This document shows positions 10,345 through 62,008 of a stretch of 64,000 nt of DNA, one piece after another. The notes under the pieces were generated by a model. The model saw only the letters and a list, made by a program, of their open reading frames with translations. It searched no databases and was not told where the DNA came from. The first letter of the stretch is position 1, and every line of letters begins with the position of its first letter. This stretch comes from an uncultured Oscillospiraceae bacterium (GTDB taxonomy: Bacteria > Bacillota > Clostridia > Oscillospirales > Oscillospiraceae): the NCBI GenBank assembly GCA_904419145.1, contig CAJFQQ010000001.1, forward strand, positions 1 through 64,000, in the 5' to 3' direction. Position numbers and translations under genes: made by a program.

Positions 10345-11049
10345 ATGGAGCAGAAAAAGACCGTCCTCATTGTGGAGGACGAGAAGAATATTGTGGATAT
10401 TCTCCGCTTTAATCTTCAGCGGGAGGGCTATGAGACCCTGGAGGCCTTTGACGGGGATGCCGGGCTGCAGATGGCCCGCACCCGGCATCCGGACATCATC
10501 CTGCTGGATGTAATGCTGCCGAAGATGAACGGCTTTGATGTGTGCCGGGCACTGCGGCAGGACGGGGACAACGTGCCGGTGCTGATCCTCACCGCCCGGG
10601 AGGAGGAGGCGGACAAGGTGCTGGGCCTGGAGATCGGGGCCGACGATTATATTACCAAGCCCTTCTCCATGCGTGAGCTGCTGGCCCGGGTGAAAGCCAA
10701 CATCCGCCGCACCGCCATGCTACATACGGACACTGCGGGCAGCACAATGGACACCGGCACAGATCTGGTTATCAATACCGATACCTACCAGGTCACCAAA
10801 GCGGGCAAGGTAATCGGACTGACCCAGCGGGAATATGAGCTGCTGACCTTTCTCGCCAGCCATCCGGGCAAGGTGTACAGCCGCATCGACCTGATGGAGC
10901 AGGTCTGGAACTACGGCTATGTGGGAGAGGACGTGCGCACCGTGGATGTGACGGTGCGGCGCCTGCGGGAAAAGATCGAGGACGATCCTGCCGCCCCCGC
11001 CTATATCCTGACCCGTCGGGGCGTCGGGTATTACTTTACTGCGGAGTGA
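10345..11049 (+). CDS. walR: WalR (YycF)-type response regulator
   Basis: OmpR/PhoB-type regulator of cell-wall metabolism in Firmicutes. 234 residues: receiver domain with the phospho-acceptor D55 (IILLDVMLP), acidic pocket (VEDE) and Lys in TKPFSMREL; winged-helix DNA-binding domain from about 130 (LTQREYELLTFLASHPGKVYSRIDLMEQVW...RTVDVTVRRLREKIE...YILTRRGVGYYF). TAGGAGGGTACT precedes ATG 10345. The Wal identity rests on the downstream order walK, yycH, yycI, yycJ, rlmH. Two matches to the WalR box lie at 60734-60750 and 60902-60918. Confidence 0.92.
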   Translation: MEQKKTVLIVEDEKNIVDILRFNLQREGYETLEAFDGDAGLQMARTRHPDIILLDVMLPKMNGFDVCRALRQDGDNVPVLILTAREEEADKVLGLEIGADDYITKPFSMRELLARVKANIRRTAMLHTDTAGSTMDTGTDLVINTDTYQVTKAGKVIGLTQREYELLTFLASHPGKVYSRIDLMEQVWNYGYVGEDVRTVDVTVRRLREKIEDDPAAPAYILTRRGVGYYFTAE

Positions 11050-11091: not shown

Positions 11092-12903
11092 ATGTTTCGA
11101 AGCCTGCACATGAAGCTGGTGCTGATTATGCTGCTGCTCATCACGTCCCTGATGACCATTGTGGGCGCGTTCCTGATGACCAGCATCACCGGCTTTTTTA
11201 TTGACGACTTTTACCAGCAGGTGGACGCCATTTTCGGCTCCTCCAACGCCTCCTTTGTCAACAATCTCCGCACTATGGCGGCCCAGGAGGACGGCCTTGC
11301 AGATATTCAGAATGCAATTGAGGCCAATGCAGCGCCTTTAGGCATCAATTACCGCACCCGCAATTACTATATCCTGGATGGGGAGACAGGTGAATTCCTG
11401 GCCAGCGGCTCGGACAATACCGATGTCCCATACCTCACCGCCACCCCCAATCTTATCACCGCCCGCAACAGCATCGCCCAGGGTACCGACGAGGTGGGCG
11501 ACAGCAGCGACATCACTGCTAGCTACATGGACGTCGCTATTCCCATCACCGGCGGGAACAACAGCTACATCATTTACATCTACGACAACCGCGGCACCGT
11601 CAGCGATCTGAACAGCCAGATGTTCCTCATCATCGTCCAGGCCCTGCTGGTGGGGCTTCTGATCTCGGTGTTGCTGAGCTTCCTTCTCAGCAAGACCATG
11701 ATTACCCCCATCGAACGGCTCACCGAGGGGGCGGAGCGGGTGGCTGCCGGGGATTTCTCCAACCCTATTGATGTGGATTCCTCTGATGAAATCGGCATCC
11801 TGACCACCACCTTTAACGACATGGCCGCCGTGCTGGAGGAGACCCTTCTCACGGTGGAAAATGAACGCAACAAGCTGGACACCCTGTTCCTCCACATGAC
11901 CGACGGCGTGGTAGCCTTCTCCGGGGACGGCTCCATTGTCCACTGCAACCCCGCTGCCAGCGAGATGCTGGAGCGCGCAGTCGGAGAGATGGACTATGAC
12001 AGCATTTTTGGAGAGATCTTCCCTCTGGAGGAATTGACACAGCTGCGCCGCCCTAATTTCAAGGAGGCGGAAATCCACCTCCACGGCAAATTTCTTGAGG
12101 TGTACTTTGCCCCCTTCGATCAGGAGAGCGGCATCGGCGTCATGGCGGTGCTCCACGATGTGACCGCCCAGCGGAAGAACGACGAGATGCGCAAGGAGTT
12201 CGTCGCCAACGTCTCCCATGAGCTGCGCACCCCGCTCACCAATATCCGCAGCTATGCCGAGACCCTTCGGGACACCGATGAGATGCCCCCTGACATCTCC
12301 CACAGCTTCCTTGATATCATCATCGGTGAAACCGACCGGATGACCCATATCGTCCAGGATCTTTTGACACTCAGCCGCCTGGACAGCGGGCAGTCGGAGC
12401 TGCACATGACCCGCTTCCACTTTGGCGACGCCATCGACAGCGTGTGCCGCGCTGTCGAATTGGATGCTCAGCGCCATGGACATACGCTGGAGCGCCTCTA
12501 TCGCTCTGAAGAGCTCCCAATGATCGTAGGTGACCAAGGGCGGCTAGAGCAGGTAATGATGAATGTCATCGGCAACTCCATCAAGTATACCCCCGACGGC
12601 GGCCGCATTCAGGTCAGTGCCGGTTCTACCGAACATCAGGTTTGGATGGAGGTATCCGACACCGGGATCGGCATTCCCAAGCAGGACTGGAACCGTATCT
12701 TTGACCGCTTCTACAGGGTGGACAAAGCCCGCTCCCGTGAAAGCGGCGGCACCGGCCTGGGGCTCTCCATTGCCAGAGAGCTGGTCGAGCGGCATGGCGG
12801 CACGATCGGACTTGTGGCGCATCAAGGCCCCGGCACGACAGTGCGCATTGTATTGCCCATCCGCCAAGAGCGTCCAATGGAGGCAGGAGATGAGAAAGCG
12901 TAA
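11092..12903 (+). CDS. walK: WalK (YycG)-type sensor histidine kinase
   Basis: 603 residues. TM1 about 8-30; extracellular sensor of about 150 residues; TM2 about 180-203; HAMP (TPIERLTEGAERVAAGDF...); PAS (ERNKLDTLFLHMTDGVVAFSGDGSIVHCNPAASEML); HisKA with H376 in EFVANVSHELRTPLTNIRSY; HATPase with NVIGNSIKYTPDGG, VSDTGIGIPKQDWNRIFDRFYR and GGTGLGLSIARELVERHGG. The architecture matches WalK of low-GC Gram-positives, which senses the state of peptidoglycan. It starts 42 bp after walR and overlaps yycH by 14 bp, so translation is coupled. Confidence 0.93.
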   Translation: MFRSLHMKLVLIMLLLITSLMTIVGAFLMTSITGFFIDDFYQQVDAIFGSSNASFVNNLRTMAAQEDGLADIQNAIEANAAPLGINYRTRNYYILDGETGEFLASGSDNTDVPYLTATPNLITARNSIAQGTDEVGDSSDITASYMDVAIPITGGNNSYIIYIYDNRGTVSDLNSQMFLIIVQALLVGLLISVLLSFLLSKTMITPIERLTEGAERVAAGDFSNPIDVDSSDEIGILTTTFNDMAAVLEETLLTVENERNKLDTLFLHMTDGVVAFSGDGSIVHCNPAASEMLERAVGEMDYDSIFGEIFPLEELTQLRRPNFKEAEIHLHGKFLEVYFAPFDQESGIGVMAVLHDVTAQRKNDEMRKEFVANVSHELRTPLTNIRSYAETLRDTDEMPPDISHSFLDIIIGETDRMTHIVQDLLTLSRLDSGQSELHMTRFHFGDAIDSVCRAVELDAQRHGHTLERLYRSEELPMIVGDQGRLEQVMMNVIGNSIKYTPDGGRIQVSAGSTEHQVWMEVSDTGIGIPKQDWNRIFDRFYRVDKARSRESGGTGLGLSIARELVERHGGTIGLVAHQGPGTTVRIVLPIRQERPMEAGDEKA

Positions 12904-14206
12904 CTTGAGTAAAGGGCAGGTCTCCATACTGCAAAATATCTGCATTCTCTGCCTCAGCCTGCTGGCAGGCTTCCTCCTGGTGACGGTATTCTCCTATGAA
13001 GCCGATGGTAACGGTACGATTCCATCCCTCAATACGCTGCTAAATTCTCCACAGGCGGACGAGAGCTCGCAGTCCTCCGACCTGAGCGGTATGGCGGTCC
13101 CCTTCAATCTGGTGGCCACATCAGAGCATGGCCGCTATGGCCGGATGCTGGTCAGCTCAGCTGAGCGTGATCAGCTTCACTCTTCCAGTCTGCTGCTGGA
13201 GGCTCTTGGTTCTGCCAGCAGCCCTGTCGTTGTGCCTGAGGATCAGTTCCAGGACGCGTTGTCCCAGACCAGCCTGTTTTTGGACTATCTTTTTCCTGTT
13301 CCCTCTTCCATACTGGCCGCCTGGTTCGGCGCGGACTTTTCTGCGGACCTGGAGATCCGCTATCTGCTGATCTCTGCCACTAGTTCAGAAAGCGCCAAGC
13401 TCTATCTGTGGGATGGGATCGGCGACATCTACTGCTACGGCACAGCGGTGGAGTATCCTTCGCTGGCAGATCTGGTGCTCTCCTTCCGCCGGGATGATGC
13501 TACTGCCTCCGGGGATGTCGCTTTTGCTTTTGAGGATCCGGAGACTTACGGCCATCTTTCCCCTTATACTGTTCTCAGCAGCGAGGCAGCAACGGCCAGT
13601 GTCCTGACATCCGCATTGCCGGACCTGGCATCAGATGTCGACTCCATCCTTTCCATACTGGACTTCAACCCACACACCATCGCCCGTTATAATCTGACCA
13701 ACGGCATAGAGGTTGTGGAATTTCCCCGGACTCTTCGGGTTTATACCGACGGCAGCATTCAATACAGCGGCAGTGCGGACGCAACCAGCTCTCTTTATGT
13801 TATCCCCACTGCCGGGGAATCCCCCAGCGAAGCGGAAGCCCTGCTGGCTTCTCTCCGTCTTGCTGAACTGCTGCTTCCGGAGGAGGTTCTTTTAGATTCC
13901 GACTTCTATTTTTCGGGTATCCAACCGACCGATACCGGCTATCACATCACATTTGACTATTTGATAGATGGCATTCCCGTCTATCTGGCCAGTGGTGCTT
14001 CCGCCCTTGAAATTGATACCACCGGCGGTACGATCACCTCGTTCCGCCTTCAATACCGGCAGTACACGGTTCAGGAGGACTCCTATCACCTGCTGCCCTT
14101 GCCGCAGGCTGTTCACATGGCAACTGGCTATCAGAACGTTTTCCTGACCAAGGGCTATGTGGATCGCGGCGGTGAAACCGTTACAGCTGAATGGCTGGTC
14201 CGGTGA
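12890..14206 (+). CDS. yycH: YycH-like regulator of WalK
   Basis: 438 residues: one N-terminal membrane segment (ILQNICILCLSLLAGFLLVTVFSY), the rest extracytoplasmic. YycH-family proteins contact WalK in the membrane and tune its activity. Assignment rests on position between walK and a YycI-like gene, on topology and on length; sequence conservation in this family is low. GGAGGCAGGAG stands before ATG 12890, inside the end of walK. By eye the codon use is AT-richer and less biased than that of walRK, common for fast-evolving envelope proteins. Confidence 0.8.
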   Translation: MRKRNLSKGQVSILQNICILCLSLLAGFLLVTVFSYEADGNGTIPSLNTLLNSPQADESSQSSDLSGMAVPFNLVATSEHGRYGRMLVSSAERDQLHSSSLLLEALGSASSPVVVPEDQFQDALSQTSLFLDYLFPVPSSILAAWFGADFSADLEIRYLLISATSSESAKLYLWDGIGDIYCYGTAVEYPSLADLVLSFRRDDATASGDVAFAFEDPETYGHLSPYTVLSSEAATASVLTSALPDLASDVDSILSILDFNPHTIARYNLTNGIEVVEFPRTLRVYTDGSIQYSGSADATSSLYVIPTAGESPSEAEALLASLRLAELLLPEEVLLDSDFYFSGIQPTDTGYHITFDYLIDGIPVYLASGASALEIDTTGGTITSFRLQYRQYTVQEDSYHLLPLPQAVHMATGYQNVFLTKGYVDRGGETVTAEWLVR

Positions 14207-14265
14207 GGATGTGCGAGGTCCACCGGCTTTTCCCCATGTCTCCGCCCCGTGGAAGGAGGGTTTTC

Positions 14266-15072
14266 TTGGAATCTTACCGTCTGAAAAACATCGTTATCAT
14301 CATATTGCTCATACTGAACCTGTTTCTCGCTTCTCTGCTGCTGAATTTCCGCCTCCAAGGCACCCGGGCACGTCAAGAAATGATGGAACAGCTCAATGCG
14401 TTGTTTACGTCCAACGCTATTTCCCTGTCAGACGATCTGGATTTAAATGCAGCGCCCCTTACTTCCCTTTCTGTCCATCGGAATTTGGAGGAAGAGTCCG
14501 CAATTGCAGCTATGCTGCTGGGAGAGGCCGTCACAGCGGAGCACCAGGGCGGCGGAATCTATTCTTATGCCGGCTCCTATGGCACCGTCCATTTCCGCAG
14601 TAATGGGAATTTCGATTATGCCCCGGTCAATCAGCGGATCAATGACCCTGCAGACTTTTGTGAGACATTTTGTGAAACTTACGGCTACGTCCCTACAGAT
14701 CCTCTCTCCAGCAGCACAGACAGTTTTACTGCCACCCAGTATCTTGGGGAACACGCCATATATAATGCCACTGTTACCTTCCAGTTCAATAACGGCTATC
14801 TGATCGCCCTCTCCGGATCGTATATTTCCAGCTCCAACACTACTCCCGTCGCCGCATCCTCCTCCCTCAGCACTGTCGATGCATTGGTGCAGCTTCTGGA
14901 TTATCGCAATGAGACAGGCGTAGTCTGTAACAGCATTCAGGAAATCCTTCCTGTATATGAGCTGCAGTCCGGCCCCTCTGCATCTCTGCAGCTGACAGCC
15001 AAATGGCAGATTACAGCGGATGCATATCAGTATTATGTAGACTGTTCCACCGGAGCTGTTATTCGCGCTTGA
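14266..15072 (+). CDS. yycI: YycI-like regulator of WalK
   Basis: 268 residues when started at TTG 14266: GGAAGGAGG at 14251-14259 stands 6 nt before it, while the upstream ATGs (14191, 14209, 14236) have no ribosome site. One N-terminal membrane helix (LKNIVIIILLILNLFLASLLLNF), then an extracytoplasmic domain of the YycI type. It would form a membrane complex with YycH and WalK. It starts 60 bp after the yycH stop and is followed by a strong terminator, so the walR-to-yycI unit ends here. Function is inferred from synteny and topology. Confidence 0.8.
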   Translation: MESYRLKNIVIIILLILNLFLASLLLNFRLQGTRARQEMMEQLNALFTSNAISLSDDLDLNAAPLTSLSVHRNLEEESAIAAMLLGEAVTAEHQGGGIYSYAGSYGTVHFRSNGNFDYAPVNQRINDPADFCETFCETYGYVPTDPLSSSTDSFTATQYLGEHAIYNATVTFQFNNGYLIALSGSYISSSNTTPVAASSSLSTVDALVQLLDYRNETGVVCNSIQEILPVYELQSGPSASLQLTAKWQITADAYQYYVDCSTGAVIRA

Positions 15073-31520: not shown

Positions 31521-32666
31521 TTACAGACCGGCCAACGTCTCCAACACGTAGTCGCCGTAGGCGGCACAGGTGGCGCCGGACGGATCGCCGGTGACCACGA
31601 TCTTCTTTTCCGTCTGGCCGCAGATCTCCAGGGCCTTCGCCAGCTTGTCGGCAGCAGCGCCCCGGGCGATGTGGCGCAGGAGCAGCTCTGTGGCTTTGAA
31701 GATGCTGGAGGGATTGGCATAGTCCCCCAGGCCCTCCTCGATCATGCGGGGGGCGGAGCCGTGGATGGCCTCGAACATGGCGTACCGGTCGCCGGTGTTG
31801 GCGCTGCCGGCGGTGCCCACGCCGCCCTGGATCTGGGCAGCCTCATCGGTGATGATATCCCCGTAGAGGTTGGGCAGGACAAACACCTGGAACTTGCCCC
31901 GGATGTCCGGGTTCACCAGGTTTGCCGCCATGATGTCGATGTACCAGTCCTCGGCCTCGATGCCCGGGTACTCCGCCGCCACCTCGTGGCAGATGGCGGA
32001 GAACAGGCCGTCGGTCTTTTTCATGATGTTGGCCTTGGTGACGATGGCCACATTGGTCTTGCCGTTGTTTTTGGCATATTCGAAGGCCGCCTGGGCGATG
32101 CGCCGGGTGCCGGGGACGGTGGTGACCTTGAAGTCCATGGCCAGAGAACCGGGCACCTCGATGCCCCGGCTCCCCAGGACATACTCCCCCTCGGTGTTCT
32201 CCCGGAAGAAGATCCAGTCAATGCCCAGCTCCGGCACGGACACCGGACGGACATTGGCAAACAAGTCCAGCTCCCGGCGCAGCGTCACATTGGCGCTCTC
32301 CATGGTGCCTCCCTTGGGGGTGGTGGTGGGGCCCTTCAGCAGTACGTCGCAGGTTTTGATAGCCGAGAGCACCTCTTTCGGCACGGACTGTCCCAGGGCC
32401 AGGCGGTTTTCGATGGTGAGGCCCTCGATGGGCTTGAGGACAATGGACCCGGCAGCGATTTCGTCCTTCAGCAGCGCCTCCAGCACCCGCTTGGCCTCAC
32501 GCATGATGATCGGACCGATGCCGTCGCCGTCAATGAGGCCGATGACCACCTGCTGCTTGGCGGAGAAGTCCGTGGCAGTATGGTCCATATGGGCGCTGCG
32601 CTCCACCTGCTGCTCCAGCAGGGCGCGGAACTGCCGGCAGGCCTGGTCGATGTAGTTGTTATCCAT
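31521..32666 (-). CDS. Isocitrate dehydrogenase, isocitrate/isopropylmalate dehydrogenase family
   Basis: Oxidative decarboxylation of isocitrate to 2-oxoglutarate. 381 residues, with an N-terminal extension of about 40 residues before the Rossmann core (VVIGLIDGDGIGPIIMREA). Substrate loop ESANVTLRRELDLFANVRPV has the Ser-x-Asn-Val pattern of isocitrate dehydrogenases, not the LeuB pattern. Metal and cofactor blocks: NLYGDIITDEAAQIQGGVGTAGSANTG and EAIHGSAPRM. NAD or NADP preference cannot be fixed by eye. Its start shares a base with the aconitase stop. With citrate synthase and aconitase in one operon, the role is 2-oxoglutarate and glutamate supply. Confidence 0.9.
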   Translation of the reverse strand: MDNNYIDQACRQFRALLEQQVERSAHMDHTATDFSAKQQVVIGLIDGDGIGPIIMREAKRVLEALLKDEIAAGSIVLKPIEGLTIENRLALGQSVPKEVLSAIKTCDVLLKGPTTTPKGGTMESANVTLRRELDLFANVRPVSVPELGIDWIFFRENTEGEYVLGSRGIEVPGSLAMDFKVTTVPGTRRIAQAAFEYAKNNGKTNVAIVTKANIMKKTDGLFSAICHEVAAEYPGIEAEDWYIDIMAANLVNPDIRGKFQVFVLPNLYGDIITDEAAQIQGGVGTAGSANTGDRYAMFEAIHGSAPRMIEEGLGDYANPSSIFKATELLLRHIARGAAADKLAKALEICGQTEKKIVVTGDPSGATCAAYGDYVLETLAGL

Positions 32667-34600
32667 TATTTGCCACCCTCCCGTGTGTAGTCCAGCAGCC
32701 CACCGGCGCGGAGGATGGCCTGCTGGCGGTCGGTAAAGTGTCCGGTCAGGGGGATGGTATCGCCGGTGGTCTCATCCAGCAGAGTGAACTGGCCGGATTG
32801 CAAGCCCTTGAACACATTGACCAGTTTCAATTTGTCGTCCTGGCGGAGCTTGTCGTAGTCGTCCGCGTTGGCAAAGGTCAGGGGCAGGATACCGGCGTTC
32901 ACCAGGTTGGCCGCATGGATGCGAGCAAAGCTCTTGGCGATCACGCACCGGACCCCCAGGTACAGGGGCACCAGGGCTGCGTGCTCCCGGCTGGAGCCCT
33001 GGCCGTAGTTGCTGCCGCCCACCACAATGCTGCTGCCGGCGGCCTTGGCACGCTCCGGGAAGGTCTTGTCGCACACGCCGAAGCAGAACTGGGACAGATA
33101 GGGGATATTGGAGCGGTAGGGCAGGATCTTGCTGCCCGCGGGCATGATGTGGTCGGTGGTGATATTGTCCCCCACCTTCAGCACCAGGGGCGCCTCCACC
33201 GTGTCGGTGAGGGGACGGCTCTTGGGGAACTCCTTGATGTTGGGGCCCCGGAGGATCTCCACAGACTCAGCCTCCGCCTCGCTGGCCGGGGGCAGGATGG
33301 CGCTGTCGTCGATCTTGAACCGCTCCGGCAGGGTAATGGCGGGCATCTCCCCCAGGGTGCGGGGATCGGTGATCGCGCCGGTGAGGGCCGCGGCCACAGC
33401 GGTCTCCGGGGACACCAGGTAGACCTTGGCGTCGGCGGTGCCGCTGCGCCCCTCGAAGTTCCGGTTGAAGGTCCGGAGGCTCACGCCGCCGGAGTTTGGC
33501 GAGAAGCCCATACCGATGCAGGGGCCGCAGGCGCACTCCAGGAGCCGGGCGCCGCTGGCGAGAATGTCGCTGAGGGCCCCGCAGTCGGAGAGCATGGCGA
33601 GGACCTGTTTGGACCCCGGGGACACGGACACGCTGACCGAGGGAGCGATGGTCCTGCCCTTCAGCAGTGCCGCCACCTTCAGCAGATCCATGAGGCTGGA
33701 GTTAGTACAGGAGCCGATGCACACCTGATCCACCTTGGTGCCGGCGATGCTGGAAACGGTCACCACATTGTCCGGGCTGTGGGGGCAGGCGATCAGGGGC
33801 TCCAGGGCAGAGAGGTCGATGTCGATGACGGTGTCATAGACCGCATCTGCATCGCTGGCGAGGGGCACATAGTCACCCTCCCGGCCCTGGGCGGCCAGGA
33901 AGGCGCGGGTGATCTCGTCAGAGGGGAAGATAGAGGTGGTGGCTCCCACCTCGGTCCCCATGTTGGTGATGGTGGCCCGCTCCGGCACGGAGAGGGTCGC
34001 CACGCCGGGGCCGCCCCACTCGATGATGGAACCCACACCGCCCTTGACGCTGATGCGTCGGAGCAGCTCCAGGCTCACGTCCTTGGCGGTGACAAAGGGG
34101 CTGAGTTTTCCGGTCAGGTTCACCTTCACCATCTTGGGCATGGTGATATAGTAGGCGCCGCCGCCCATAGCCACCGCCACGTCCAGCCCGCCGGCGCCGA
34201 AGGCCAGCATGCCGATGCCGCCGCCGGTGGGGGTGTGGCTGTCGGAGCCGATGAGGGTCTTGCCGGGGATGCCGAAGCGCTCCAGGTGGACCTGGTGGCA
34301 GATGCCGTTGCCGGGGCGGGAGAAGTACAGGCCGTGCTTCTTTGCCACGGACTGGATGTACCGGTGGTCGTCGGCGTTCTCAAAGCCGGACTGCAGGGTG
34401 TTGTGGTCGATGTAGGCCACGCTGCGCTCCGTCCGCACCCGGGGGATGCCCATGGACTCAAACTCCAGGTAGGCCATGGTGCCCGTGGCGTCCTGGGTCA
34501 GCGTCTGGTCGATGCGCAGGGCTACCTCGCTGCCGGGGGCCATGTCCCCGCTGACCAGATGAGATCGGATGATTTTCTGAGCAATGGTCAAGCCGCTCAT
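32666..34600 (-). CDS. Aconitate hydratase (4Fe-4S)
   Basis: Interconverts citrate and isocitrate. 644 residues, shorter than AcnA-type aconitases and like the compact aconitase/homoaconitase forms of anaerobes. Cluster ligands: CIGSCTNSS and ACGPCIGMG. N-terminal active-site blocks DHNTLQSG and GSDSHTPTGGGIGMLAFGAGG; C-terminal swivel domain GGSNYGQGSSREHAALVPLYLGVRCVIAKSFARIHAANLVNAGILPL. ATG 34600 overlaps the GntR stop (ATGA). The operon partners support citrate as substrate over isopropylmalate or homocitrate. Confidence 0.93.
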   Translation of the reverse strand: MSGLTIAQKIIRSHLVSGDMAPGSEVALRIDQTLTQDATGTMAYLEFESMGIPRVRTERSVAYIDHNTLQSGFENADDHRYIQSVAKKHGLYFSRPGNGICHQVHLERFGIPGKTLIGSDSHTPTGGGIGMLAFGAGGLDVAVAMGGGAYYITMPKMVKVNLTGKLSPFVTAKDVSLELLRRISVKGGVGSIIEWGGPGVATLSVPERATITNMGTEVGATTSIFPSDEITRAFLAAQGREGDYVPLASDADAVYDTVIDIDLSALEPLIACPHSPDNVVTVSSIAGTKVDQVCIGSCTNSSLMDLLKVAALLKGRTIAPSVSVSVSPGSKQVLAMLSDCGALSDILASGARLLECACGPCIGMGFSPNSGGVSLRTFNRNFEGRSGTADAKVYLVSPETAVAAALTGAITDPRTLGEMPAITLPERFKIDDSAILPPASEAEAESVEILRGPNIKEFPKSRPLTDTVEAPLVLKVGDNITTDHIMPAGSKILPYRSNIPYLSQFCFGVCDKTFPERAKAAGSSIVVGGSNYGQGSSREHAALVPLYLGVRCVIAKSFARIHAANLVNAGILPLTFANADDYDKLRQDDKLKLVNVFKGLQSGQFTLLDETTGDTIPLTGHFTDRQQAILRAGGLLDYTREGGK

Positions 34601-35256
34601 TTCGTTTTTCCTCCCATAATACTGTTCATGGCGTGCTGGAGGTGCTCCTCCGTCAGCCGGGCCGCCGCCTCTCCATCATGGGCGGCAATGGCCTCATAGA
34701 TCTTCCGGTGCTCCACGGCGATCTCCTCGCTGCGCTTGGGGTTCTCAATGGAGGCCCGGCGATACTTCTGGATCCGCTTGTGCAGGGGGATCAGGGTGTC
34801 CGCCAGCACGTGGCGGCCGCTCTGGCGGCAGATCTCCACATGGAACTGGTCGTCCATCTCCTTGACATGGGCCGGGTCCTTCTTCTCGGTGTAGAAATTT
34901 TGAAGCTCCACGATGTGCTTGAGCTCCTCCAGCCCCTCGGGCGTGATGTTCTGTGCGGCGTAGTAGCTGGCAAGGCCCTCCAGCCGCAGGCGGATGTTCA
35001 TGATATCCCGCACATCCTCCTCCGTGATCCCCAGCACCACGCTGCCCTTGCCGCTGTCTCCGTCGGCAATCAGGCGCTCCTGGGTCAGGCGGCGCATGGC
35101 CTCCCGCACCGGGGTGCGGCTGACGCCCAGCTCCTCCGCCAGCCCAAGCTCCGTCAGGACCTGGCCCGGGGCGTAGCGGCCAAAGATAATATCGTCCTCC
35201 AGGCGCTCATACACCCGGTCTGCCAGCAGTACATTCTTATATGGTCTCTCAGTCAT
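34597..35256 (-). CDS. GntR-family (FADR/FCD) transcriptional regulator of the citrate operon
   Basis: 219 residues from ATG 35256, which overlaps the preceding stop (TAATG) and has GGAGGAATC before it. N-terminal winged helix: VYERLEDDIIFGRYAPGQVLTELGLAEELGVSRTPVREAMRRLTQERLI. C-terminal FCD helical domain (LEGLASYYAAQNITPEG...) with metal/ligand-type residues in DDQFHVEICRQSGRHVL and the last His block (EEHLQHAM). FCD regulators usually bind organic acids. The gene lies inside the operon it probably controls, via the palindrome at 36696-36705 over the promoter. Confidence 0.9.
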   Translation of the reverse strand: MTERPYKNVLLADRVYERLEDDIIFGRYAPGQVLTELGLAEELGVSRTPVREAMRRLTQERLIADGDSGKGSVVLGITEEDVRDIMNIRLRLEGLASYYAAQNITPEGLEELKHIVELQNFYTEKKDPAHVKEMDDQFHVEICRQSGRHVLADTLIPLHKRIQKYRRASIENPKRSEEIAVEHRKIYEAIAAHDGEAAARLTEEHLQHAMNSIMGGKTK

Positions 35257-36644
35257 TACAGATTCCTCCCCGGCCATTTCAATTCCCCGCCTGTCAGCTC
35301 GCTGATCTTGTGGGCCAGCTCCTGATTGGACAGCACCGACTGGCGGCCGTCCTCATACTCCTGGTCCACCCACTCCTTCAGCGCCACGATGAGCGGGTCC
35401 TTCTTGCTGTACGCCTTCTCCGGCGGCAGCTTATAGGCCTCGTTGATCCAGTAGGCAATACCCGCCAGGCCCGAGGTCTTGCCGATCTGCACGGTGGCAG
35501 GACGGTTGAGCAGCTTCTTGGTGTTGAAGATATTGTAGATCTCCTCGTCCTTCAAAAGGCCGTCGGCGTGGATGCCGGCCTTGGTCACATTGAAGTTCTC
35601 CCCCACAAACGGCGTCATGGGCGGGATCGTGTACCCGATCTCATGGGTGAAGTAGTCCGCGATCTCCGTGATCACCGTGGGGTCTACGCCGTCCAGGCTG
35701 CCCCGGAGGGAGGCGTATTCGAAAATCATGGCCTCCAGGGGGATATTGCCCGTGCGCTCGCCGATGCCCAGCAGGGAGCAGTTCACGGCGCAGGCGCCAT
35801 AGAGCCAGGCGGTGGCGGCATTGGCCACGGCCTTGTAGAAGTCGTTGTGGCCGTGCCACTCCAGCATCTCGCTGGGCAGATCCGTGTAGTGCTGCAGGCC
35901 GTAGATGATGCCGGGAACGCTGCGGGGCAGGGCCACCTCGGTGTAGGGCACGCCGAAGCCCATGGTGTCGCAGGCCCGGATCTTCACCGGGATCCCCGCC
36001 TCCTTGGCCAGATTCTGCAGCTCGTTGACCAGGGGCACCACAAAGCCGTAGAAGTCGGCCCGGGTGATATCCTCCAAATGGCAGCGGGGCACCACCCCGG
36101 CATCAAAGGCGTCCTTCACCGTCCCCAGATACAGATCCATGGCCTGGCGGCGGGTCATCTTCATCTTCTTGAAGATGTGGTAGTCGCTGCAGCTCATGAG
36201 CATGCCGGTCTCCTTGATGCCCAGGGACTTCACCAGCTTGAAGTCCTCCTTGCTGGCACGGATCCAGCTGGTGATCTCCGGGAAGGGCAGGTCCAGCTCC
36301 ATGCACTTCTCGATGGCCTCCCGGTCCTTCTTGCTGTAGACAAAGAACTCGGTCTGGCGGATGATCCCGAAGGGGCCGCCCAGCTTGGAGAGAAACTTGT
36401 AGATCTGCACCACCTGATCCACGGTGTAGGGCTCCACAGACTGCTGTCCATCCCGCAGGGAGGTGTCGGTGATCCAGATATCCTCGGGCATGTTCATGGG
36501 CACCCGGCGATGGTTGAAGGGCACCTTGGGCACAGTGTCATAGCCGTAGATGTCCCGGTACAGGTTGGGCTCTTCCACGTCCTGCAGGGAATATTTATAG
36601 GAGCGGTACTCCAGCAGGTTGGTTTTACTCGATACTTCCAACAT
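35256..36644 (-). CDS. Re-type citrate synthase candidate (isopropylmalate/homocitrate synthase family)
   Basis: 462 residues, DRE-TIM metallolyase fold: DTSLRDGQQSVEPYT (catalytic Asp and Arg), EWHGHNDFYKAVANAATAWLYGACAVNCSLLGIGERTGN (metal His pair), and GIHADGLLKDEEIYNIF. There is no LeuA C-terminal allosteric domain of usual length. The best-known relatives are the Re-citrate synthases first described in Clostridium kluyveri, often labelled isopropylmalate synthase. Followed by GntR, aconitase and isocitrate dehydrogenase genes; no leuC, leuD or leuB is near, favouring acetyl-CoA plus oxaloacetate to citrate. Homocitrate synthase remains possible. Confidence 0.82.
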   Translation of the reverse strand: MLEVSSKTNLLEYRSYKYSLQDVEEPNLYRDIYGYDTVPKVPFNHRRVPMNMPEDIWITDTSLRDGQQSVEPYTVDQVVQIYKFLSKLGGPFGIIRQTEFFVYSKKDREAIEKCMELDLPFPEITSWIRASKEDFKLVKSLGIKETGMLMSCSDYHIFKKMKMTRRQAMDLYLGTVKDAFDAGVVPRCHLEDITRADFYGFVVPLVNELQNLAKEAGIPVKIRACDTMGFGVPYTEVALPRSVPGIIYGLQHYTDLPSEMLEWHGHNDFYKAVANAATAWLYGACAVNCSLLGIGERTGNIPLEAMIFEYASLRGSLDGVDPTVITEIADYFTHEIGYTIPPMTPFVGENFNVTKAGIHADGLLKDEEIYNIFNTKKLLNRPATVQIGKTSGLAGIAYWINEAYKLPPEKAYSKKDPLIVALKEWVDQEYEDGRQSVLSNQELAHKISELTGGELKWPGRNL

Positions 36645-55481: not shown

Positions 55482-55511
55482 AGGCGGCAGATGAAACAAG
55501 GAGACGCCGCC

Positions 55512-56168
55512 ATGAAAACCATTTTAATCGTAGAGGATGACCGCCCCCTGGCCCAGGGGATCCAGATGGCCCTGAGCCAGGGCGACCGGACTATCCGTTT
55601 GGCCCACACCCTCTCCGAGGCCAGGGCGCATCTGGCCGCAGAGCCCTTTGACCTGATGGTCCTGGACCTGAACCTGCCGGATGGCAACGGGCTGACACTG
55701 CTGGAGGAGCTGCGCCGGACCAGCGACCTGCCGGTGCTGATCCTCTCCGCCAACGATATGGAGATGGATCAGGTCACCGGGCTGGAGCGGGGCGCCGACG
55801 ACTATGTGACCAAGCCCTTCTCCCTGGCGATCCTCCGGGCCAGAGTCAGCAACCTGCTCCGGGAGCGGAGGAAAAGCGGGGTAATCGACCTGCCCCCCTT
55901 CTCCTTTGACTTCCAGCAGATGGTATTTACCCGGGAGGGCAGCCCCCTGGAGCTGTCCAAGACCGAGCAGCGGCTGCTGCGGCTGCTGGTGGAGAACCGG
56001 GGCAGGACCCTGTCCCGGGAGGTGCTGCTGGATCGTGTCTGGGACAGCGGGGAGTTTGTGGATGAGAACGCCCTGTCCGTTGCGGTAAAGCGGCTGCGCA
56101 GCAAGTTGGTGGACGCCCCCATCAAAACCGTCTACGGCGTGGGCTACACCTGGTCGGAGGAGAAATAG
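55512..56168 (+). CDS. OmpR-family response regulator (Bce-like module)
   Basis: 218 residues. Receiver: VEDDRPLAQGIQMAL, phospho-acceptor D52 in LMVLDLNLPDGNGL, TKPFSLAIL. Winged helix from about 125: LSKTEQRLLRLLVENRGRTLSREVLLDRVWDSGEFVDENALSVAVKRLRSKL...TVYGVGYTW. AAGGAGACGCCGCC precedes ATG 55512. The kinase gene follows with no gap, then an ABC ATPase and large permease: the layout of BceRS-AB peptide-antibiotic sensing and detoxification modules. Its probable site is the direct repeat at 57145-57173. Confidence 0.93.
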   Translation: MKTILIVEDDRPLAQGIQMALSQGDRTIRLAHTLSEARAHLAAEPFDLMVLDLNLPDGNGLTLLEELRRTSDLPVLILSANDMEMDQVTGLERGADDYVTKPFSLAILRARVSNLLRERRKSGVIDLPPFSFDFQQMVFTREGSPLELSKTEQRLLRLLVENRGRTLSREVLLDRVWDSGEFVDENALSVAVKRLRSKLVDAPIKTVYGVGYTWSEEK

Positions 56169-57071
56169 ATGGGTTTCTATGGATATTTGATCGGTGCGGC
56201 TGGGCTGATAGGTCTGGCTGTTGGACTTTGTCTGGCCCTTCGCAGCCGCCGCACCCTCCGCCGTCTGGACAGCATGCTCACCGCCGCCATCGACGGCGGC
56301 TTTTCCGAGGACACCTTTGACGAGAGCGCCCTCTCCGCGGTGGAGACCAAAATGAGCCGTTTCCTCAGCGGCTGCGCCGCCGCCAACCGGGACTTGTCCA
56401 CGGAAAAGGAATCAATCAAATCTCTGATCGCCGACATCTCCCACCAGACCAAGACCCCCATTGCCAATATCCTGCTCTACGCCTCCCTGCTCTCCGAGGG
56501 GGACCTCTCCCCGGCCCAACAGGCACAGGTCCAGGCCCTCTCCGCCCAGGCGGAGAAGCTCTCTTTCCTGGTCCAGGCGCTGGTCAAGGCCTCCCGGCTG
56601 GAGACAGGGATCCTTACCATGACGCCGGCGCGTCATGGCGTCCAGCAGCTGCTGGACGCTGCGGCGGGCCAGGCCGCCGAAACCGCCCGCAGCAAGGGCG
56701 TGGCTCTCGCCGTGGAGGAGACAGGCTGCGCCGTGCTGTGCGACGGGAAGTGGACGGCGGAGGCCCTCTATAATGTGGTGGACAACGCGGTGAAGTACAC
56801 CCCCTTCGGCGGCAGCGTCCGCCTGGCTGCCACAGCCCTGGGCCAGTTCTGCCGCATCGACGTCTCCGACACCGGCATCGGCATCCCCGAGGTGGAGCAG
56901 GCCAGCATCTTCCAGCGGTTCTACCGGGGGCAGGCGGTCCGGGAGCAGGAGGGGCTGGGCATCGGGCTCTACCTCACCCGGGAGATCCTCAGCGGCCAGG
57001 GCGGTTTTGTCAAGGTCTCCTCCAAGGTCGGACAGGGGAGCACCTTCTCCCTCTACCTGCCCCGGGGCTGA
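56169..57071 (+). CDS. Sensor histidine kinase partner of the Bce-like module
   Basis: 300 residues. A single N-terminal membrane helix (YLIGAAGLIGLAVGLCLAL) with almost no extracellular part, so it cannot sense a ligand alone. HisKA: H92 in LIADISHQTKTPIANILLYASLL. HATPase: NVVDNAVKYTPFGG, VSDTGIGIPEVEQASIFQRFYR, GLGIGLYLTREIL. Such intramembrane-type kinases usually read the state of their ABC transporter. ATG follows the regulator stop directly. Classic BceS has two helices; here only one is visible. Confidence 0.92.
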   Translation: MGFYGYLIGAAGLIGLAVGLCLALRSRRTLRRLDSMLTAAIDGGFSEDTFDESALSAVETKMSRFLSGCAAANRDLSTEKESIKSLIADISHQTKTPIANILLYASLLSEGDLSPAQQAQVQALSAQAEKLSFLVQALVKASRLETGILTMTPARHGVQQLLDAAAGQAAETARSKGVALAVEETGCAVLCDGKWTAEALYNVVDNAVKYTPFGGSVRLAATALGQFCRIDVSDTGIGIPEVEQASIFQRFYRGQAVREQEGLGIGLYLTREILSGQGGFVKVSSKVGQGSTFSLYLPRG

Positions 57072-57144
57072 GGCAGCAATATCGCGGCAAAAACAGGGGC
57101 CGGGCGCCGTCTTGGCGTCCGGCCTCTGACCATGGAACAGTGAG

Positions 57145-57173
57145 ATTCTTTCCAGCCCGGCTGGAATTCTTTC
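57145..57173 (+). promoter_or_regulatory. Candidate response-regulator site before the ABC genes
   Basis: ATTCTTTC occurs at 57145-57152 and again at 57166-57173, 21 bp apart (two helical turns), with an inverted-like GAATTCAGAAAG at 57184-57195. A possible -10 TATCCT lies at 57217-57222 with no good -35, as expected for an activated promoter. Inference only. Confidence 0.45.
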
Positions 57174-57270
57174 AAAACTGATAGAATTCAGAAAGAGTGT
57201 GGAAAGATTTGTCTGGTATCCTGTTTCCTGTGAGCCGGGCAGGGGCCCGGCAGAAAGGAGCATCCCAGTT

Positions 57271-57939
57271 ATGGCGATTTTGGAAACCAAGGATTTGAAG
57301 AAATACTACGGCAGCGGCGATACGCTGGTGAAGGCCCTGGACGGGGTCAATTTGAGCGTGGAGAACGGGGAGTTTGTGGCCATTGTCGGCACCTCCGGCT
57401 CCGGCAAGTCCACCCTGCTCCACATGCTGGGCGGGCTGGACCGGCCCACCAGCGGCACCGTCACCGTGGGCGGGAAGGACATCTTCTCCCTGAAGGATGA
57501 GGAACTAACCATCTTCCGCCGCCGGAAGATCGGCTTCGTGTTCCAGGCCTACAACCTGGTGCCGGTGCTCAGCGTGTATGAGAACATCGTCCTCCCCATC
57601 CAGCTGGACGGCGGCAAGGTGGATGAGGCGTATGTCAACCAGGTCATCCACACCCTGGGGCTGGAGGCCAAGCTGCAAAACCTCCCCAATCAGCTCTCCG
57701 GCGGCCAGCAGCAGCGGGTAGCCATTGCCCGGGCTCTGGCCACCAAGCCCGCCATCATCCTGGCCGACGAGCCCACGGGCAACCTGGACTCCAAAACCAG
57801 CCAGGACGTCCTCTCCCTGATGAAGGTCACCAGCCAGAAGTTTGCCCAGACCATGGTGATGATCACCCACAACGAGGAGATCGCCCAGCTCTCCGACCGG
57901 ATCGTCCGCATCGAGGACGGCCGGATCGTCAGCCGCTGA
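57271..57939 (+). CDS. ABC transporter ATPase (MacB/BceA type)
   Basis: 222 residues from ATG 57271, with AAAGGAG before it. Walker A GTSGSGKSTLLHMLGGLD, Q-loop FVFQAYNLVPVLSVYENI, signature LSGGQQQRVAIARALATKP, Walker B IILADEPTGNLDSKTSQDV, switch MVMITHNEEIAQLSDRIVRIEDGRI. The family serves FtsX-type permeases in mechanotransmission and peptide detoxification. It lies 200 bp after the kinase, with a likely inducible promoter between. Confidence 0.94.
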   Translation: MAILETKDLKKYYGSGDTLVKALDGVNLSVENGEFVAIVGTSGSGKSTLLHMLGGLDRPTSGTVTVGGKDIFSLKDEELTIFRRRKIGFVFQAYNLVPVLSVYENIVLPIQLDGGKVDEAYVNQVIHTLGLEAKLQNLPNQLSGGQQQRVAIARALATKPAIILADEPTGNLDSKTSQDVLSLMKVTSQKFAQTMVMITHNEEIAQLSDRIVRIEDGRIVSR

Positions 57940-57954
57940 GGGAGGGGACGGACC

Positions 57955-60618
57955 ATGAAAGTCTCCAACCGCAAGTGCGTGCGCCATCTGAGTCTCCGGA
58001 GCCTCCGGGCCAACAAGTCCCGGAACATTGTGGCGGTGCTGGCCATCGCCCTGACTACGGTGCTGTTTACCTCTCTCTTTACCATTGCCATGTCCATCAA
58101 CGACGGGTTCCAGCAGTCCAACTTTCGCCAGGTGGGCGGCTTCTCCCACGGTGGGTTCAAGTACCTGACCGAGGAGCAGTTTGAGGATCTGCGAGACGAC
58201 CCCCTCATCGACCAGTGGGGCGTCCGGCGCTTCCTGGGCATGCCCACGGATGTGCCCTTCAACAAGTCCCATGTGGAGGTGAGCTGGTGCGACGCCAATG
58301 ACGCCCACTGGATGTACTGCGACCCGGTGGAGGGCCGCCTGCCGGAGGAGGGAACCAATGAGGCCGCCACGGACACCCATGTGCTGGAGCTGCTGGGCAT
58401 CCAGCCGGAGATCGGGGCGGAATTCACCATCACCTTCGATGTGGACGGCCATACCACCACCCAGACCTTCACCCTCTCCGGCTGGTGGGAGTACGACGAG
58501 GCCATTGTGGCTAACCACGTGCTGATCCCGGAGAGCCGGGTGGACGCCATCCTGGCCGAGGCGGGGGTGACCCCGCCCGGCAGCAACGGCATGATCGGCA
58601 CCTGGAACCTGGATGTGATGCTGAAAAGCGGTGCCCGCCACATTGAGCAGGACCTGGATCAGATCCTGGAAAACCACGGCTACCAGAGTGAGACCGCCGG
58701 GGACAACTACATCGACACCGGCGTCAACTGGGGCTACACCGGCGCTCAGCTTAGCGACAATATTGACCCCACAGTGGTGATCGCCATTGCCGCCATGCTG
58801 CTGCTCATCATCTTCACCGGCTACCTCATTATCTATAATGTGTTCCAGATCTCCGTAGCTGGGGATATCCGGTTCTACGGCCTGCTGAAAACCATCGGCA
58901 CCACCCCCCGGCAGCTGCGGCGGATCATCCGTCTCCAGGCTCTGCTGCTCAGTGCGGTGGGCATCCCCCTGGGACTCATCGTCGGGTGGTTTATCGGCGG
59001 ATGGCTGACACCGGTGATCGTCTCCCGCCTGGACGGGATCACCAGCGTGGTGTCCCTGAGCCCTATCATCTTCCTGGGTGCGGCGGCGTTCTCCCTGGCG
59101 ACGGTGCTGCTCTCCTGCCGCAAGCCTGGGCGGATGGCGGCGAAGGTCTCCCCCATCGAGGCGGTGCGCTACACCGAGGGCGGCGGCCGGAAACAGGGCA
59201 GTAAGACCCGCCGGACGAAGCGGGGGGCCTCTCTCTTCGCCATGGCCTGGGCCAACCTGGGCCGCAGCCGGAGCAAGACCGTGGTGACGGTGCTGTCGCT
59301 GTCCCTGGCGGTGGTGCTGCTGACGGTGACAGTGAATCTCACGGGCGGCTTTGACATGGACAAATACGTCTCCAACTTCACCGCCAGCGACTTCATCGTG
59401 GCGAACGCTGGGAAGTTCCAGAACAGCGTTCTGGATTTCACCACGGACATGGCCGTGCCCCAGTCCGCCATCGACGCTATTGCGGCCCAGGGCGGCATCA
59501 CTGACAGCGGTGTTGTCTACGGCCAGACGTTCGGGGCGCTGGAATATGTCACCGAGGACTGGTTCCGGCAGAACAAACAGCGCTTCTACACCCCGGAGCA
59601 GATGGATAACCTGGTCCGGCTGACCGAGCGGAATGAAGAAGGACTGCTGGCTGACCGGATCCAGCTCTCCGGCATGAGCGACTTCGCCCTGGACCATTTG
59701 ACCGTGCTGGAGGGGGATCTCTCCAAACTCCGGGAGGACGGTGGGCGGTATGTAGCCGCCGTGTATGCCGCCGACGAAACCGGCAACGCAGACATGGACT
59801 CCCACTGGGCCCGTCTGGGGGACACCGTCACCGTCCGGTACGTGGAGGAGACGGAATATGTGGACCCGGACACCGGCATCGCCTATCCCAGCGTGGAGGA
59901 CGTGCCCGCCTGGGCCAACTATGTGGCGCGGCCGGTGAAGTACCGGGATGTGGACTATGAGGTGGCCGCCCTGGTAACGGTGCCCTCCGCCCTCTCCTAC
60001 CGCTACTACGGCGCGGACGAGTTCATCCTCAACGACCAGACTTTTATCCAGGACAGCGGCACGTCGGACGTGATGTACTACGCCTTCGACACCACCGAGG
60101 AGGCCAACGCCTCCATGGAATCCTTCCTCCAGGACTACACGGAGAACGGTAACCCGGAACTGGACTATGAGAGCAAGGCCATCTACGCCGCGGAGTTTGA
60201 GAGCATGCGCTCCATGTTCCTGATCCTGGGGGCGGCGCTGAGCTTCATCGTGGGTCTGGTGGGCATCCTGAACTTCTTCAACGCCATCTTCACCGGCATC
60301 ATCACCCGCCGGAGGGAGTTCGCCGTCCTTCAATCCATCGGCATGACGGGGCGGCAGCTCAAGCGGATGCTGATGCTGGAGGGCCTGCTGTACACCCTGG
60401 GGGCGGTGGCTGCCTCCCTGGTGCTGGCGGTGGTGCTGGGCCCCCTGGCCTTTACCGCCATCGAGAGCCTGTTCTGGTTCTTCACCTACCGCTTTACCCT
60501 GGCCCCCTTCCTCATTATCACCCCCATTTTTATCCTGCTGGGGCTTGAGATCCCGCTGTTCACCTACCGCTCCGCCGCCAAGCACACTATTGTGGAGCGG
60601 CTGCGGGAGAGTGAGTAA
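57955..60618 (+). CDS. Large FtsX/MacB-type ABC permease
   Basis: 887 residues with two FtsX domains. TM1 near 25-45 (RNIVAVLAIALTTVLFTSLFTIAMSI); an extracellular domain to about 275; three helices about 278-400 (VVIAIAAMLLLIIFTGYLIIYNVFQISV...); cytoplasmic linker; fifth helix near 440 (SKTVVTVLSLSLAVVLLTVTVNL); a second extracellular domain about 460-750; the last three helices to the end (FLILGAALSFIVGLVGILNFFNAIF...). This eight-helix layout fits macrolide/peptide exporters more than BceB (ten helices). A 15-bp gap to the ATPase. A hairpin without T-run at 60637-60666 follows. Confidence 0.92.
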   Translation: MKVSNRKCVRHLSLRSLRANKSRNIVAVLAIALTTVLFTSLFTIAMSINDGFQQSNFRQVGGFSHGGFKYLTEEQFEDLRDDPLIDQWGVRRFLGMPTDVPFNKSHVEVSWCDANDAHWMYCDPVEGRLPEEGTNEAATDTHVLELLGIQPEIGAEFTITFDVDGHTTTQTFTLSGWWEYDEAIVANHVLIPESRVDAILAEAGVTPPGSNGMIGTWNLDVMLKSGARHIEQDLDQILENHGYQSETAGDNYIDTGVNWGYTGAQLSDNIDPTVVIAIAAMLLLIIFTGYLIIYNVFQISVAGDIRFYGLLKTIGTTPRQLRRIIRLQALLLSAVGIPLGLIVGWFIGGWLTPVIVSRLDGITSVVSLSPIIFLGAAAFSLATVLLSCRKPGRMAAKVSPIEAVRYTEGGGRKQGSKTRRTKRGASLFAMAWANLGRSRSKTVVTVLSLSLAVVLLTVTVNLTGGFDMDKYVSNFTASDFIVANAGKFQNSVLDFTTDMAVPQSAIDAIAAQGGITDSGVVYGQTFGALEYVTEDWFRQNKQRFYTPEQMDNLVRLTERNEEGLLADRIQLSGMSDFALDHLTVLEGDLSKLREDGGRYVAAVYAADETGNADMDSHWARLGDTVTVRYVEETEYVDPDTGIAYPSVEDVPAWANYVARPVKYRDVDYEVAALVTVPSALSYRYYGADEFILNDQTFIQDSGTSDVMYYAFDTTEEANASMESFLQDYTENGNPELDYESKAIYAAEFESMRSMFLILGAALSFIVGLVGILNFFNAIFTGIITRRREFAVLQSIGMTGRQLKRMLMLEGLLYTLGAVAASLVLAVVLGPLAFTAIESLFWFFTYRFTLAPFLIITPIFILLGLEIPLFTYRSAAKHTIVERLRESE

Positions 60619-60733: not shown

Positions 60734-60750
60734 GTTACAAATCGGTAACA
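60734..60750 (-). promoter_or_regulatory. WalR-box match 1
   Basis: On the minus strand TGTTAC-CGATT-TGTAAC, a full match to TGTWAH-N5-TGTWAH, the published Bacillus/Staphylococcus WalR consensus. It lies about 100 bp upstream of the promoter of the G5/3D gene. Confidence 0.65.
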
Positions 60751-60853
60751 AGATTTGTTTCCAGTTTCCCTGTTTTTTTCGTAAAACTGTACCGTCGAAA
60801 CAGAGAACTTTCTCCAAAAAGTTTGGACAATCCCACTAATTTTGGGCAAAAAC

Positions 60854-60882
60854 TTGACAAACCTCCCATTCTGCGTTATACT
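60854..60882 (+). promoter_or_regulatory. Sigma-A promoter of the G5/3D-domain gene
   Basis: TTGACA (60854-60859), 17-bp spacer, TATACT (60877-60882). The start near 60889 gives a leader of about 97 nt that contains WalR-box match 2. Confidence 0.82.
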
Positions 60883-60901
60883 ACACGAAGTTTTTCAAAT
60901 G

Positions 60902-60927
60902 GTAACAAAAGAGTAACAATCGTAACA
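60902..60927 (-). promoter_or_regulatory. WalR-box match 2 with a third half-site
   Basis: On the minus strand TGTTAC-TCTTT-TGTTAC (60918-60902), again a full match to TGTWAH-N5-TGTWAH. One more TGTTAC at 60927-60922 is spaced by 3 bp. Its position about +14 to +39 after the predicted start would suit repression or a road-block. Confidence 0.65.
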
Positions 60928-60985
60928 AGAATGTCTTGTGCCATACGGCACCGGCTGTTGCCAAATGAAACTAGGAGGTTTTATC

Positions 60986-62008
60986 ATGCATACCCAAGGC
61001 AAACATCTGCTCTGGAAGAGCAAGCGCCTGTGGGCCCTCTCCGCTTTATCCATCTGTTTGTTCGTGTTGACCCTGATGCGCTCCGCGTCCACCGACGCGG
61101 CAGCCGTGGAGGTGGAGGCCAAGGACGCCCCCATCCCCATCACCAGCGTTGACGACAACGTCCTCATCGCCACCGCGGTCAGCATGTCCAATGGCGACGA
61201 CAGCGCCCTTCAACTGGAGGAGGGGGTTCCTGTTGTCATCCACTATCTGGATGCAGATATCACTGCTACAGCTGAAGATGAGACTGTTTCCAAGCTGCTT
61301 GACCGTTTGAAGATCGAGCCCAGTCCTCTGGACATGGTTGCAGTGGACTCCTCCGCTGAGCCGGTGGAAATCACTATCGGCACCCAGTTTGTCTATTATG
61401 ACACCGTGGAAGAGATCACCGAGAGTCCCGTCCGCTATGTGGACAACAGCATCCTCCCCACCTGGAGCGAGCAGGTCATCACCCAGGGGCAGAACGGCGT
61501 CCACCGCAAGGTCTATGAAGTCGTCTATGAAAACGGCCAGGAGATCTCCCGTCACTTGGTGGAATCTGTGGATACTGAACCAACAGAGACGGTCATTGAG
61601 CGGGGCACACTGGAAAACTTCGCTCCCAATGACGCGGAGGTGGTGGACATCATCACCAATGCCGATGGCTCCGGCAAGCTGGTGCTGGCAAACGGCCAGG
61701 AGGTCACCTTCTCCAAGACCATGACCATGAGGGCCACCGCCTACACCACCGGCGATCCCGGCGTGGGCACGGTTACTGCCTCCGGCTCCACCGTCCATCT
61801 GGGTACGGTGGGAGTGGACCGCAGCCAGCTCCCCTTCGGGACGAAAATGTATATCGTCTCCAACGACGGCGCCTATACCTACGGTTTTTCCATTGCGGAG
61901 GACACCGGCGGCGCCATCCGGAAAAACCGGATTGACCTGTACTACTACACCTACGAGGAGTGCATTCAGTTTGGCGTGCGTGACTGCACAGTATACATTC
62001 TGGACTAA
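60986..62008 (+). CDS. Secreted G5- and 3D-domain cell-wall protein (YabE/YocH-like)
   Basis: 340 residues from ATG 60986, with TAGGAGG before it. Signal or anchor helix (LWALSALSICLFVLTLM); a DUF348-like repeat (VPVVIHYLDADITATAEDETVSKLLDRLKI); a G5 domain (VVYENGQEISRHLVESVDTEPTETVIERGT); a C-terminal 3D domain with its three Asp (MRATAYTTGDPGVGT, GVDRSQLPFGTKMYI, AEDTGGAIRKNRIDLYY), the lytic transglycosylase fold of MltA/RpfB. Bacillus YocH, also 3D-type, is a classic WalR target. Probable peptidoglycan remodelling outside the membrane. Confidence 0.92.
   Translation: MHTQGKHLLWKSKRLWALSALSICLFVLTLMRSASTDAAAVEVEAKDAPIPITSVDDNVLIATAVSMSNGDDSALQLEEGVPVVIHYLDADITATAEDETVSKLLDRLKIEPSPLDMVAVDSSAEPVEITIGTQFVYYDTVEEITESPVRYVDNSILPTWSEQVITQGQNGVHRKVYEVVYENGQEISRHLVESVDTEPTETVIERGTLENFAPNDAEVVDIITNADGSGKLVLANGQEVTFSKTMTMRATAYTTGDPGVGTVTASGSTVHLGTVGVDRSQLPFGTKMYIVSNDGAYTYGFSIAEDTGGAIRKNRIDLYYYTYEECIQFGVRDCTVYILD

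Follow-up and report, generated by a model that had tools for sequence, protein, structure and literature searches.

The window, that is, the whole stretch of 64,000 nucleotides (64 kb) of Oscillospiraceae DNA analysed here, contains a gene for a protein of 340 amino acids (60986-62008, plus strand) with G5 and 3D domains (PF07501 and PF06725, both over the cut-offs), a presumed peptidoglycan hydrolase. Directly upstream of this G5-3D gene, at 55491-60618, stands a Bce-like set composed of a response regulator, a kinase, an ABC ATPase (by our own reading) and an FtsX-type permease. The gene is preceded by a predicted sigma-A promoter, TTGACA-N17-TATACT, on the plus strand at 60854-60882, with 11 of the 12 consensus bases, and by a ribosome-binding site, AGGAGG (60973-60978, plus strand), ahead of the ATG at 60986. 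The promoter is located between two boxes, both on the minus strand: TGTTACCGATTTGTAAC at 60734-60750 (TGTTAC-N5-TGTAAC) and TGTTACTCTTTTGTTAC at 60902-60918 (TGTTAC-N5-TGTTAC). A transcription start inferred from the promoter falls near 60889, so that the upstream box covers approximately positions -155 to -139, and the downstream box begins at approximately +13 and extends to +29, inside the untranslated leader. Three bases from the latter box a third half-site, TGTTAC (GTAACA on the plus strand), occupies 60922-60927 of the minus strand. The original prediction had placed one box far upstream and the other after the predicted start, which is right for the transcription start but not for the start codon. 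A search with Rfam for a known riboswitch gave no match around the gene with gathering scores, and none in locus L017 with E 0.1.

These two boxes are the only matches to TGTWAH-N5-TGTWAH in the 64-kb window, and both agree with the definition of the WalR box, two consensus hexamers with a 5-bp spacing, the spacing in relatives being often N3 or N4. Dinucleotide shuffles of the window gave a mean of 0.01 matches, and two matches were reached in none of 100 shuffles; a chance origin was rejected on these shuffles and on the controls with the pattern read backwards given below. The two full boxes and the third half-site were thus borne out exactly as they had been described. The label "YocH-like" that the gene had received is a loose one. 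YocH has LysM and 3D domains, and YabE of Bacillus subtilis has a G5 followed by a 3D domain. The 3D domain is common to the three proteins and the G5-3D order is that of YabE; Pfam found no LysM in the protein studied here, only its G5 and 3D domains, and hence, as far as the relation can be judged by domains only, it is not YocH by architecture.

An orthologue of the G5-3D gene is present in all 11 genus genomes searched, that of the window included, and all of them keep TTGACA-N17-TATACT, a pair with the GTWAC core beginning at +13 and a second pair 130-155 bp upstream, whose second half is TGTAAT in two genomes. The conservation in relatives that the original prediction had called for is therefore found throughout the genus genomes searched; L018, too, has the third half-site in the same position. 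Between the upstream pair and the -35 element, measured in ten genus genomes (L026, left out here, was read at promoter level), the DNA is only 50-68% identical in 40 of the 45 pairwise comparisons, and its length is 91-93 bp in eight genomes and 104 bp in the species of the window and its nearest relative. From core to core the pairs are 157 bp apart in two genus genomes and 144-146 bp apart in the other nine. Loci outside the genus were the best-scoring 30 (28 of them new in the order sample) and not a random draw, which holds for the searches with the G5-3D, 98-aa and M23 proteins alike. From 19 G5-3D loci taken, L041 and L042 were dropped as no start was found, and a box pair stands at nine of the 17 promoters read (backwards control 0; mean of 200 shuffles 0.04). 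Both pairs were found in four of ten promoters read, at 143, 145, 167 and 167 bp, while the other six were without one pair. The distances (143-146, 157 and 167 bp) cluster near whole helical turns, with R of 0.63, 0.79 and 0.88 for repeats of 10, 10.5 and 11 bp, values equalled in 10%, 2% and 0.5% of uniform draws, respectively; the statistics rest on six classes that are not fully independent, and L044, with upstream sites and no downstream pair, was left out of them. A repression loop between both pairs is plausible, the helical spacing being compatible with it without proving it.

Scanning the whole genome for boxes before envelope hydrolase genes gave a divided answer. The plain consensus was weakly enriched, with 16 matches against nine for the pattern read backwards, and for this reason the search moved to the half-site conserved in relatives, TGTWAC, with 3-5 bp between the halves. 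This refined motif, TGTWAC-N3-5-TGTWAC, was chosen after the boxes of the window and the relatives had been seen; it has nine matches in the genome of the window (backwards control 4), and all nine fall at the promoters of five surface genes, namely the G5-3D gene, an operon of a 98-aa gene and an SH3-NlpC/P60 gene, a LysM-G5-M23 gene, an SGNH/GDSL hydrolase gene and an SLH-type gene. Over the 11 genus genomes the motif has 84 matches (backwards control 40), 63 of which, by our own sorting of the match list, are at the same five promoter groups: G5-3D 22, NlpC 11, M23 10, SLH 16, a count that takes both strands of a near-palindrome, and SGNH 4. The other 21 include matches at BlaI-type genes and at genes for Big_2 proteins, solute-binding proteins and a LysM-CAP protein, and some without a clear target. 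Names were checked by running Pfam on one representative each of the SLH, M23, Big_2, solute-binding, LysM-CAP and BlaI-type proteins of the relatives, the last of which matched Penicillinase_R. In L112, L129 and L138 (relatives G001, G002 and G010), TGTWAC pairs precede the gene for a BlaI-type repressor by approximately 95-109 bp, the identity of the gene resting on the scan of L112 and on our reading of the other two. The boxes of the G5-3D gene are predicted to belong to a small regulon.

In 37 of the 41 rows of the NlpC operon the box contains TACAAT, separated by 17 bp (in one case 18) from TTGACA or TTGACG; two genus places are held twice (L139/L090 and L140/L105), so that the count corresponds to 35 of 39 places. 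Given this spacing, the box itself would be the -10 element, running on over the start. The NlpC/P60 gene lies downstream of the 98-aa gene, on the same strand, in 29 of the 30 best-scoring loci of the family sample, and the 98-aa gene is present in 96 of 101 family-sample and 128 of 147 order-sample genomes. Outside the genus the pair stands at 36 of 55 98-aa/NlpC promoters read (backwards control 1; mean of 200 shuffles 0.13), one of 56 loci having been dropped for too little upstream DNA. In family f13, tandem sites of the TGTAAY type lie downstream of TTGACA in the other orientation in all seven loci read; the pair at the 98-aa gene is absent in seven of nine f2 loci and in all four loci read from f3, f8 and f11. 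The 98-aa protein (L090:1935-2231, contig C9 of the genome of the window) has no Pfam or NCBIfam match, and its PDB matches are all insignificant.

The LysM-G5-M23 gene carries its pair shortly after the -10, within approximately 20 bases, in all ten genus loci. Of 30 family loci fetched, 19 near-full-length ones were read, own genome included, and 15 of these have the pair after the -10, a count that takes in L211 despite halves of mixed orientation. Of the four others, L225 has one imperfect half, and L212, L213 and L224, without a box, probably have wrong starts. In the genome of the window the M23 protein is named by 65% identity to the Pfam-scanned L099, and the intergenic region also serves a divergent gene that we read as pta-like. 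At the SLH-type gene, by contrast, the boxes are upstream of the -35 in all eight loci, and at the SGNH gene a triple box is upstream of the -35 in both loci. The own SLH-type gene runs off its contig after some ten codons and was named by its N-terminal peptide, the SLH domain having been found by Pfam in relative L107. Hence two positions can be distinguished: boxes of the G5-3D, NlpC/P60 and M23 genes overlap or follow the predicted -10, a repressor position, in many members of the family and in some other families read, whereas those of the SLH and SGNH genes stand before the predicted -35, an activator position. As far as sequence can tell, a conserved operator layout of the WalR type on surface-gene promoters is real.

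The 5' leader of the SLH-type gene (L092:4348-4577, contig C20 of the own genome) and those of seven genus relatives contain near-invariant blocks, CAGATACGGGACCGGC..GCCACGGTATGTG and AAAAAGATAAGGGGAG, the rest being divergent. No Rfam match was obtained at E 0.1 in L092, L101, L107 and L117, and since in the consensus fold of 36 pairs only two have changes on both sides, the structure is unproven.

The window also contains walR and walK, as had been stated. The walR gene (10345-11049, plus strand) encodes an OmpR-type response regulator, the leading candidate for the reader of the boxes, whose best NCBIfam model is YycF (301.6 bits, below the cut-off of 340). It is followed by walK (11092-12903, plus strand), a histidine kinase with HAMP and PAS domains in Pfam that matches HK_WalK over residues 1-590 with 456 bits, below the cut-off of 725. 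The reading frames after walK (12563-14206 and 14191-15072) have no Pfam match, and yycH, yycI or yycJ were not confirmed in them; the region 32666-35277 was rejected as walRK, as it encodes, by our reading, a GntR-type regulator and an aconitase-like protein. Among the 15 PF00486 matches of the genome, 14 of which matched in the comparison with solved WalR/VicR, one falling short of the cut-off, the DNA-binding domain of WalR is the closest, with 60.9% identity to B. subtilis 2d1v against 48.4% for the next regulator, and its recognition helix, DVRTVDVTVRRLREKIED, is identical to that of 2d1v. Its five best PDB matches lead all others by over 30 bits; three of them carry the name VicR, WalR or YycF, the other two only that of a DNA-binding response regulator.

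From the sites seen, how they are conserved, where they stand with respect to conserved promoter-like sequences and which gene families they precede, we infer a binding protein, a sign of regulation and a loop, and propose, with a probability of roughly 60%, that a WalR-type regulator represses the G5-3D gene via the conserved paired sites flanking its sigma-A promoter. The phosphorylated regulator would bind both pairs; bound at the downstream pair it would block RNA polymerase, and at the upstream pair it would probably strengthen the block via a phased DNA loop. As the boxes stand on or just after the predicted starts of the three presumed peptidoglycan-hydrolase genes (G5-3D, SH3-NlpC/P60 and LysM-G5-M23), a WalR-type regulator likely switches all three off, the SLH-type and SGNH genes having their boxes in activator position. 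From the earlier suggestion of a loop or a mode of repression unlike that of Bacillus yocH, repression fits the positions found, while the loop is compatible with the helical spacing, which does not prove it; moreover, most of the G5-3D promoters read outside the genus lack the upstream pair, and with it the means of forming a loop.

The protein reading the boxes might not be the walR product of the window alone. A second WalR-like response regulator, the S-type (G000:C39:7085-7759, locus L047), is the runner-up with 48.4% identity and occurs in all 11 genus genomes. Its recognition helix has the same RRLREK stretch as WalR, preceded by H instead of T, and after it lies a HAMP-HisKA kinase without a PAS match, whose best NCBIfam match is also WalK, but partial. 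In a tree of 83 regulators, unrooted and with some own-genome rows on long branches, the S clade (30 rows, 100/99) is apart from the WalR clade (33 rows, 100/99). Of the two regulators, only the S-type was found in ten relatives that bear boxes (G112, G120, G127, G088, G228, G099, G023, G030, G028 and G037) and also in G152, whose 98-aa gene lacks a box pair; with the WalR query the box-bearing G128 and G031 (63% complete) had no hit at 1e-58, and in at least eight relatives from f2, f3 and f8 WalR is present while the 98-aa gene lacks such a pair. The presence or absence of WalR shows no clear correlation with the boxes, which weakens a reading by WalR only. On the other side, seven f13 genomes, whose regulators fall inside the WalR clade, and G022 bear boxes and only a WalR-clade regulator was found in them, the same protein being the best match to the S-type query; furthermore, the DNA-binding domain of the S-type and its wing, TKWGVGY, are further from solved WalR/VicR. 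Since box-bearing relatives carry a WalR-clade regulator, an S-type one or both, neither alone explains all boxes, and since some lack one or the other, the S-type is a serious rival. That it is the main reader, or that both regulators read the boxes, is nevertheless a somewhat unlikely alternative to our proposal. The original identification of the boxes as WalR sites is upheld in so far as they match the WalR type and WalR is closest to solved WalR/VicR, though WalR is not the sole candidate; in the genome of the window it is the first and most likely one, with the S-type, or both, close behind.

The sign of regulation is a separate matter, as boxes of the WalR type that overlap or follow the promoter could still serve to activate the hydrolase genes. 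VicR of Streptococcus mutans footprints over promoter elements of gtfB and gtfC, both positively regulated (PMC4168254), so the position of a box does not fix the sign, and B. subtilis WalR activates lytE, cwlO and yocH (PMC7299342). Against activation, in the genus the conserved G5-3D pair lies past the predicted transcription start over its whole length, upstream positions are used by the same genome at the SLH and SGNH genes, and a Clostridioides difficile NlpC/P60 gene is lowered by WalR overproduction (PMC9210968). We consider activation improbable. The weakest of the alternatives would do without an OmpR-type regulator, the half-sites belonging to an unrelated regulator or to a hairpin of the leader RNA (GTAAC..GTTAC). 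GTWAC is nearly self-complementary, in several relatives the downstream pair might, by our reading, fold into a short hairpin, and the refined motif also precedes a BlaI-type repressor gene in three of them; however, such pairs are also seen at a great distance upstream of this promoter and, at other genes, upstream of the -35, where they would be outside these transcripts. The repeats are mostly direct, with steps of 9-11 bp, and dimers of OmpR-type regulators need direct repeats at such steps. Such an origin is very unlikely.

Repression by a WalR-type regulator could be part of a broader scheme, which we regard as tentative and rather doubtful: a sign-inverted Wal regulon of Oscillospiraceae and related families, in which NlpC/P60, M23 and G5-3D hydrolases would be shut off, with a helically phased DNA loop in the case of G5-3D, S-layer and SGNH genes would be switched on, and two sister WalR-like regulators, sharing one operator code, would replace each other between lineages. 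Two WalR-like systems may share targets.

The logic of WalRK regulons is known mostly from Bacilli, and judging by titles and the beginnings of abstracts we found no report of WalR boxes in Oscillospiraceae in the open-access literature. B. subtilis WalR (YycF) activates yocH, lytE and cwlO and represses iseA (PMC7299342), and it also represses sasA (PMC6853874). The B. subtilis regulon has the same TGTWA direct-repeat half-sites, targets among wall hydrolases and walRK in the genome (PMC7299342). It differs in that here the boxes of the presumed hydrolases are in repressor position, the half-sites step by 9-11 bp start to start, not always by 11 (N5), and the sites may be shared with a sister regulator. 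In Bacillus, hydrolase genes of this kind are mostly switched on by WalR, and repression here would likely be the opposite. The S. mutans system resembles ours in box position, VicR binding in vitro to boxes that overlap promoter elements or lie downstream of the promoter, with the difference that some of the overlapped genes are activated by VicR (PMC4168254). In Firmicutes the WalRK system has been called essential and a potential drug target (PMC9210968); in C. difficile it shows a split similar to that proposed here, NlpC/P60 down versus S-layer up. When WalR is overproduced there, cd630_27680, an NlpC/P60 gene before which two boxes are predicted, goes down, six S-layer genes go up and autolysis becomes slower, some Wal phenotypes being inverted relative to other Firmicutes, which was reported as unexpected (PMC9210968). 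Two S-layer amidases are raised as well, so that the decrease does not extend to all hydrolases there; one hydrolase gene under mild repression by Wal shares its transcript with a BlaI-BlaR pair, and WalK is described as being without a PAS domain, like the sister kinase here (PMC9210968). The likeness is limited in that, in the part of this source available, box positions are not given relative to promoters and no orthology is established between its targets and those described here. The operator layout thus offers a promoter-level hypothesis for the inversion of phenotypes in C. difficile, together with promoters on which to test it, and a sign-inverted Wal regulon, if true, would explain why these phenotypes are the inverse of those of Bacillus.
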